NCBI GenBank assembly: GCA_040223695.1
Contig: JAVKFU010000009.1
Span: 124,001-188,000, forward strand
DNA length: 64,000 nt
Direction of reading: 5' to 3'
Source of the DNA: Deltaproteobacteria bacterium
GTDB taxonomy: Bacteria; Desulfobacterota_D; UBA1144; Nemesobacterales; UBA2774
The notes under the pieces were generated by a model. It was not told where the DNA came from and searched no databases. It saw only the letters and a program-made list of their open reading frames with translations. The position numbers and the translations under genes were made by a program. Shown piece after piece: positions 60,499-62,807 of this stretch. Position 1 is the first letter of the stretch. Each line of letters starts with the position of its first letter.

Positions 60499-61230
60499 AT
60501 GACGAGTACTAAATCTAAACTGGGAGAAGTTGGGCAGGGAATAAAAGCGGACAACGCAAGGTGGTCGTTTAGCGGAAAAACTGCGCAGAATTTTAGTGAT
60601 CATGTGAGAAAGTCCGTTCCACTTTATGAAATAGGTCATGATCTTGTATGTAAGCTCAGCGACTTTTTCGTGAGGGACGATTCAGTCTGTTATGAGCTCG
60701 GCGTATCTGTTGGTGATCTAATAGCAAAATTAGCTCGGCATAACCATAAAAATAAAGCAAAATGGGTCGGCGTCGATTGTGAAAAAAATATGATAAGGGA
60801 GGCAGGCAAAAACACCTCCGGGCTCGAAAATGTAATGCTGGACTGCGCAGACATCAATTTATATGAATTCGAAAAATCCGATTTTATCGTATCGTATTAT
60901 ACAATTCAATTTGTACCCCCAAAATTAAGACAAGACCTGCTGAATAAAATATATGAGAGTCTCAATTGGGGAGGAGCGTTCGTCTGGTTTGAAAAGATTC
61001 GCGGTAGTGATGCGAGATTTCAGGATATTATGACTACGCTTTACAACGATTACAAACTTGAAAATAATTTCAGCACCGAAGAAATAATATCTAAAACCAG
61101 AAGTTTGAAAGGTGTGTTAGAGCCATTTTCGACTCAGGGAAATATCGACCTGCTGAAGAGAGCGGGATTTGTCGATATTCAGACCGTAATGACTTATATG
61201 TGCTTCCAGGGGTTTCTCGCGATAAAATAA
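60499..61230 (+). CDS. CmoA-like class I methyltransferase-fold protein
   Basis: This 243-residue protein resembles CmoA, which converts SAM and prephenate into carboxy-SAM for tRNA modification. Alignable pieces are SVPLYEIGHDLV near residue 38, VCYELGVSVGDLIAKL, QFVPPKLRQDLLNKIYESLNWGG, and the KTRSLKGVLEPFS stretch, whose Arg corresponds to the carboxylate-binding arginine of CmoA. CmoB, its partner, is not in the window. Since the next gene is an FkbM methyltransferase and the DNA is AT-rich, it may have been recruited to another pathway. The ATG follows AGAGAGGA. Confidence 0.72.
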   Translation: MTSTKSKLGEVGQGIKADNARWSFSGKTAQNFSDHVRKSVPLYEIGHDLVCKLSDFFVRDDSVCYELGVSVGDLIAKLARHNHKNKAKWVGVDCEKNMIREAGKNTSGLENVMLDCADINLYEFEKSDFIVSYYTIQFVPPKLRQDLLNKIYESLNWGGAFVWFEKIRGSDARFQDIMTTLYNDYKLENNFSTEEIISKTRSLKGVLEPFSTQGNIDLLKRAGFVDIQTVMTYMCFQGFLAIK

Positions 61231-62166: not shown

Positions 62167-62323
62167 AAATCCTATAATCGGCTCACTCACCTTTGAATTA
62201 AAAAACATAGGGCGGCTCCATATGAGAAATTCGTCTGACTCTGTAAGTTTCTTAAACCTAGCTTTAGAAAAGGGGGAGCAATACAAGAGAGAATGGTTTA
62301 TACTTTATAAAGAGGTATGAATA

Positions 62324-62470
62324 ATGTCTGCAAAAAAAGCTTTTCTCACATACCTGGGCAATAGAAAATGGAGAAAGGTTAGAAGTTCAAAGGCTCCTGC
62401 GGGAAGAAAATACCTGAAATATGTCGGGAAAAGGAAATGGAAAAAAGTTAGCGCTGCTGTTGGAAAATAG
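62324..62470 (+). CDS. 48-residue very basic protein with two tandem repeats
   Basis: An ATG preceded by GAGGT opens a 48-codon frame. The protein is very basic: 17 Lys/Arg and no Asp or Glu. It has two copies of an FLxYLGxRKWRKV-type unit, at residues 7-19 and 30-42, 23 residues apart, joined by SSKAPAG. Repeated Tyr-Trp-Lys/Arg blocks suggest nucleic-acid or membrane binding. It overlaps by 23 bases the end of the convergent truncated gene. I recognise no family. Confidence 0.6.
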   Translation: MSAKKAFLTYLGNRKWRKVRSSKAPAGRKYLKYVGKRKWKKVSAAVGK

Positions 62471-62651
62471 CGGTTTTATCTGCTGTCAACGATAAATTTG
62501 TCTTTCTTTGATATAAGCTTAATACTTTCTTGTGAATACAGACGTGCGTTGTATTCCACTCGCATATAACCTCTCTGACGAACTTACGCTCATTATCTAT
62601 ATCTGAAGGGGATGCAATCATAATTTTTATTAAAGTTGCCTGGATTGCCAT
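62448..62651 (-). pseudogene. Truncated DUF4062-type gene start
   Basis: A perfect GGAGGT site and ATG at 62651 begin a 67-codon frame. Its first 36 residues match the start of DUF4062 proteins (IKIMIASPSDIDNERKFVRE, then VICEWN). After EWNTTH the family's continuing sequence is absent, and the frame runs through unrelated residues to a stop 204 bases from the start. DUF4062 domains normally continue for well over 50 more residues and join to larger proteins. This looks like a 5' remnant left by a deletion. Confidence 0.55.
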
Positions 62652-62729: not shown

Positions 62730-62807
62730 CGGGGTGTAGCTCAGATTGGCTAGAGCGTTGCGTTCGGGACGCAGAGGCCGCCGGTTCAAGTCCGGCCACC
62801 CCGACCA
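62730..62807 (+). tRNA. tRNA-Pro (anticodon CGG), CCA encoded
   Basis: The sequence folds as a complete tRNA: acceptor CGGGGTG pairing with CACCCCG, D-arm GCTC/GAGC, anticodon stem TTGCG/CGCAG with loop TTCGGGA (anticodon CGG, G37 as usual for proline), T-stem GCCGG/CCGGC with TTCAAGT loop, discriminator A and encoded CCA (62805-62807). It reads proline codon CCG. Confidence 0.95.

Follow-up and report, generated by a model that had tools for sequence, protein, structure and literature searches.

The open reading frame at 62324-62470 (+) of the window, the whole 64,000-nucleotide stretch of DNA that was analysed, is a genuine small-protein gene, because its homologues share its frame, its length and a repeat period of 23 residues. 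These homologues were found in 12 other genomes (11 complete, one at a contig end). The explanation that we tentatively prefer, at close to but somewhat under an even chance, is that the gene is a non-essential single-gene accessory unit making a small, folded, basic, double-hairpin protein that binds nucleic acid.

The protein has 48 residues, 12 of them Lys and 5 Arg, and contains neither Asp nor Glu. The 17 basic and zero acidic residues agree with the preliminary description of the frame, which had also seen two 13-residue copies of a pattern with a 23-residue period, and a ribosome site ahead of the frame. The copies lie at residues 7-19 (FLTYLGNRKWRKV, 62342-62380, +) and 30-42 (YLKYVGKRKWKKV, 62411-62449, +); they are identical at 8 of 13 positions and the period is exactly 23 residues. 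When the same residues were shuffled 20,000 times, 12 of the shuffles contained a repeat pair of equal quality. The ribosome-binding site, AGAGG (62311-62315, +), stands 8 nt before the ATG and is largely retained in relatives. No usual start lies ahead of this ATG, because the in-frame codons directly 5′ of it are the stop TGA and ATA. In the homologue of genome G007 (L015/L057) no ATG fits the start, and either ATA at the aligned start or GTG three codons earlier would be needed.

Alignment with the g3 and g2 homologues showed a conserved upstream block, GAGAATGGTTTATACTTTATAAAGAG, at 62289-62314 (+), containing a −10-like TATACT (62299-62304). The −10-like block and the ribosome site are retained in most members of family f1, the block being poorly retained in G028. 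A consensus promoter scan did not flag the block as a promoter. It is present as a single copy in the genome, allowing up to three mismatches, and the idea of a regulon shared through it was rejected on that ground.

When genome contigs were scanned with the window protein, four loci emerged, three in records titled Candidatus Dadabacteria and one in a record titled Thermodesulfobacteriota bacterium DHS20C13; as the scan was keyed on exact 8-residue peptides, distant relatives in other phyla could escape it. In a whole-genome profile search of 57 genomes from the phylum, 13 gave strong matches at E 1e-12 or better; one of the 13 is the genome of the window. Twelve of these members are complete and one (G042) is cut by a contig end; four weak partial matches (E 0.01-0.1) were excluded from the count. 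All 13 genomes belong to one order, in which the distribution is patchy (8 of 16 in family f1, 4 of 7 in f2, 1 of 2 in f4 and 0 of 32 in the others). A search of 386 genomes, of which 329 or more lie outside the 57, added no homologue, and phages and plasmids gave no match at E up to 1. Viral contigs held no confirmed relative, the seven stretches with the peptide pattern being non-relatives. On these searches the family appears to occur only in a single order of uncultured bacteria related to Dadabacteria, and the titles of the metagenome-assembled genomes suggest that all its hosts are uncultivated. The gene would be dispensable for the host, because it was not found in G031, G036 and G038, relatives whose genomes are 96-97% complete.

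The preliminary description expected a real gene to have homologues with the reading frame kept and the repeats conserved in several genomes, and this was observed: the 12 other genomes carry the same frame, and the period of 23 is kept in all 12 complete members. The complete members range from 42 to 52 residues, each with 14-17 Lys/Arg and no more than two Asp/Glu, and are 38-83% identical to the window protein (the G042 fragment, 90%). Both copies of the motif [FY]-L-x-[YH]-x-G-x-R-x-W, and their period, hold down to 38% identity. All 13 alignment rows share L31, Y33, G35, R37 and W39, and the 12 complete rows also share L8, G12, N13, R14 and W16. Between distant pairs, non-synonymous change per site is below synonymous change (e.g. 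0.30 vs 0.85 for G004-G003). Among the closest genomes, however, the changes are not protein-like: G032 and G037 differ by six non-synonymous and no synonymous changes, and this counts against the explanation that we prefer.

The small gene also changes unexpectedly slowly at synonymous sites, its divergence being far below that of mreB, rpsL and mutL in nearly all pairs from the same genomes. As it has only about 26-34 synonymous sites, single values are rough; the rates do not include G042, whose copy is cut, and the mreB comparisons lack G032, in which no mreB match was obtained. Between the window and G035 the divergence is 0.16, compared with 0.85 for mreB and 0.72 for rpsL. Over the ten pairs of the window with other genomes it spans 0.16-0.72 (mreB, 0.72-0.90), and in eight of them the small gene lies below every 42-codon stretch of mreB. 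Compared with rpsL, the small gene diverges less in 34 of the 36 genome pairs, the exceptions being G032-G035 (equal) and G028-G030 (higher); its divergence exceeds that of mreB in G028-G030, G006-G009 and G004-G009 and equals it in G004-G003. In the syntenic trio beside mutL, G032 and G037 show no synonymous change in 34 sites of the small gene, with 0.44 per site for mutL and an intermediate 0.19 for a small ORF that precedes mutL. That ORF (MLSEF...LFS, L003:960-1121, +, just upstream of mutL) would encode 53 membrane-like residues; it is also seen in L002, L053 and L120-L123, seven g3 genomes in all, has an internal stop in G032 and no visible ATG in G034, and matched nothing in NCBIfam.

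The low divergence cannot be put down to plain codon bias, because equivalent residues of repeats 1 and 2 are encoded differently: Gly12 is mostly GGC and Gly35 GGG or GGA, Leu8 mostly CTC and Leu31 mostly CTG, Tyr10 mostly TAC and Tyr33 mostly TAT, and each choice is kept across most genomes. The low divergence points to lateral spread or to constraint at the nucleotide level. The latter would mean that the stretch is conserved as a structured RNA or regulatory element, alongside or instead of the protein. The repeat-specific codons and the unchanged synonymous sites of G032-G037 fit this, but the RNA folding does not stand out from that of shuffles (z −0.90, 36 of 200 being equally good), the covariation term is unfavourable (+1.37), no Rfam family other than tRNA was found and the distant genome pairs evolve like protein. 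We regard constraint of this kind as distinctly unlikely. Lateral spread would be simpler, and it agrees both with the third-position GC of the small gene, which hardly varies (0.36-0.40; rpsL, 0.24-0.62), and with its shifting neighbours.

The small gene stands alone, and its neighbours vary even inside one genus. The neighbour is mutL in G032, G037 and G035, a LigD 3′-phosphoesterase in G030, a universal stress protein in G028, an MreB paralogue in G004 and G006, an IS110 transposase, also in G006, a carboxylesterase in G009 and an alpha/beta hydrolase in G007; in G034 the gene is flanked by a propeller gene and a transporter. Within genus g3 it precedes mutL in three genomes, lies elsewhere in a fourth (G034) and was not found in three, and the mutL loci of G033, G034, G036 and G038 gave no match to it. 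The gene has thus changed place inside g3, as it is absent from the mutL locus of G034 and yet present elsewhere in that genome.

In the window the neighbouring FkbM methyltransferase gene is present in two of eight genomes examined, the window's included. Beside it, at 60499-61230 (+), lies a CmoA-like methyltransferase gene (TIGR00740, E 5.5e-41, below the cut-off of that model). The truncated gene and the tRNA that had been reported beside the frame are, respectively, an N-terminal remnant of a DUF4062 protein (62448-62651, −), which overlaps the 3′ end of the small ORF, and tRNA-Pro(CGG) (62730-62807, +). The first 43 residues of the remnant match annotated DUF4062 proteins on plasmids (E 9e-6); searched alone against Pfam and NCBIfam the remnant gave no match. 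Its position adjoining the tRNA suggests an eroded accessory insertion, and a search of the window for a tRNA attachment-site repeat returned only the tRNA itself. The earlier view of the region as an accessory locus is supported by the remnant, the tRNA, the occurrence of FkbM in two of eight genomes and the patchy presence of the small gene in 13 of 57.

DNA-acting neighbours of the small gene recur (L052, L053/L061, L057, L058, L059). They are MutL, the LigD 3′-phosphoesterase, a uracil-DNA-glycosylase-like protein, SRAP in two genomes and a DinG-like helicase. This recurrence is only a lead, noticed post hoc and without a control.

These data bear on the possibility that a cassette of promoter plus ORF, about 220 bp long, spreads laterally between the genera of the order, the role of the protein being secondary. 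Such spread is compatible with the explanation that we prefer, and both can hold together. It is consistent with the low synonymous divergence, the steady GC and the change of position within g3, and also with the sister genomes G028 and G030, whose rpsL proteins are identical but which differ at 25% of the non-synonymous sites of the small gene. Their synonymous divergence, however, being above that of rpsL, is contrary to a simple recent spread. The gene tree rejects neither G028+G030 (p-AU 0.166) nor family f1 (0.312) as clades; with these tests not significant, tree discordance was set aside as a proof of transfer. Neither a recombinase nor a terminal repeat was found, the IS110 transposase is the only one among the scanned neighbours, and the searched phages and plasmids lack the gene. 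No empty site could be demonstrated for the G030 locus, the LigD_N neighbour being absent from the five relatives tried. On balance, we consider the cassette possible but doubtful. A bolder version, in which a transposase-less unit of about 220 bp moves among genera into varied insertion places and the hairpin protein perhaps aids its own maintenance or transfer, appears improbable.

AlphaFold predicted two beta-hairpins for the window protein, one per repeat (strands 7-12 and 15-19 in the first, 29-35 and 38-43 in the second), with modest confidence, the mean pLDDT being 71, rising to about 80 in residue blocks 11-20 and 31-40, and the pTM 0.44. The same strands were obtained in two runs headed by 46%-identical sequences. 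The protein probably folds as two stacked beta-hairpins. Comparison of the model with known folds gave nothing significant, either with Foldseek (best E 3.2 in the PDB and 1.3 in BFVD) or with VIA (best Z 2.6, gelsolin-like domains).

Searches of Pfam, NCBIfam, PADLOC and PHROGs with the window protein or all 13 members revealed no fitting family, and PADLOC defence models matched none of the 13 at E up to 1. Isolated Pfam matches, each in one or two members, were taken as noise, the best being EcoO109I at E 0.0079 in 1 of 13; so were stray matches to PHROGs. The profile phrog_2273 matched 14 residues of the window protein weakly (E 0.045) and 12 of the 13 members (best E 0.0082); it was rejected as a specific family, since at E up to 10 it was also matched in 6 of 14 control genomes. 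A sequence search of the PDB gave nothing fitting (best E 0.23, nitrogenase beta chain).

Two known kinds of small protein invite comparison. The archaeal chromatin proteins Sso7d and Cren7 are likewise small, Lys-rich and built of beta strands, and like them the window protein is proposed to bind nucleic acid by charge. It has no sequence match to them, however, and its model lacks a C-terminal helix and has two equal repeats; at E up to 1, none of the 13 members matched a Pfam family of this kind. As to the SH3-like barrel fold of these proteins, Foldseek with the window model (pLDDT 71) gave Sso7d (1bnz) E 9.0 and TM 0.30. WW domains have about 40 residues, beta strands and two Trp some 20 residues apart. 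The window protein resembles them in size, strands and Trp pair, but its Trp spacing is 23, it would form two hairpins rather than one three-stranded sheet, and it is without the Pro-binding signature; no member matched the WW profile at E up to 1.

In the mechanism that we propose, the gene would be a non-essential unit that carries its own promoter and is limited to one order, and its product a small basic protein of two near-identical hairpins. The conserved Leu/Tyr and Arg/Trp positions (i and i+2 in each strand) would line one face, which would pack the two hairpins together, and the variable Lys/Arg side would bind DNA or RNA by charge. Nucleic-acid binding is suggested as the most likely role by charge, size and predicted fold; it is charge and size that carry the assignment, because no relative of known function was found by sequence or fold. 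Small ribosomal proteins resemble the window protein in size, charge and Lys/Arg/aromatic make-up, and the product might instead be an extra small ribosomal protein or a hibernation factor. This is unlikely, as no family matched and the gene was not found in near-complete relatives (it is present in 8 of the 16 f1 genomes); a ribosome-bound role is less likely than nucleic-acid binding because the gene appears dispensable. The antimicrobial-like peptide of the preliminary description, or a toxin-like one, would suit short, cationic hairpins containing Trp and Arg. The protein, however, has no Cys and no visible hydrophobic leader, no export, maturation or immunity gene is retained among the scanned neighbours and PADLOC was negative, and we consider this role very improbable indeed.

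A literature search found no paper describing the family. The FESNov catalogue (PMC10849945) collects lineage-specific unknown gene families of uncultivated taxa; its criteria are at least three complete genes, at least two uncultivated species, a conserved region of more than 20 aa and no reference family. The present family has 12 complete members from several species of uncultured lineages, a conserved stretch of more than 20 residues and no Pfam, NCBIfam or PADLOC family. The likeness is one of criteria, and the coverage differs, being patchy for the small gene but near-universal in a clade for the FESNov families.

A 48-residue ORF that is easily taken for noise is shown here to be a conserved gene family, one that is absent from Pfam, NCBIfam and PADLOC and from the searched set of PDB chain sequences. 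A protein this small with tandem hairpins is tractable for structural and binding work, and the slow synonymous change of its gene relative to the rest of the genome presents a concrete evolutionary puzzle.
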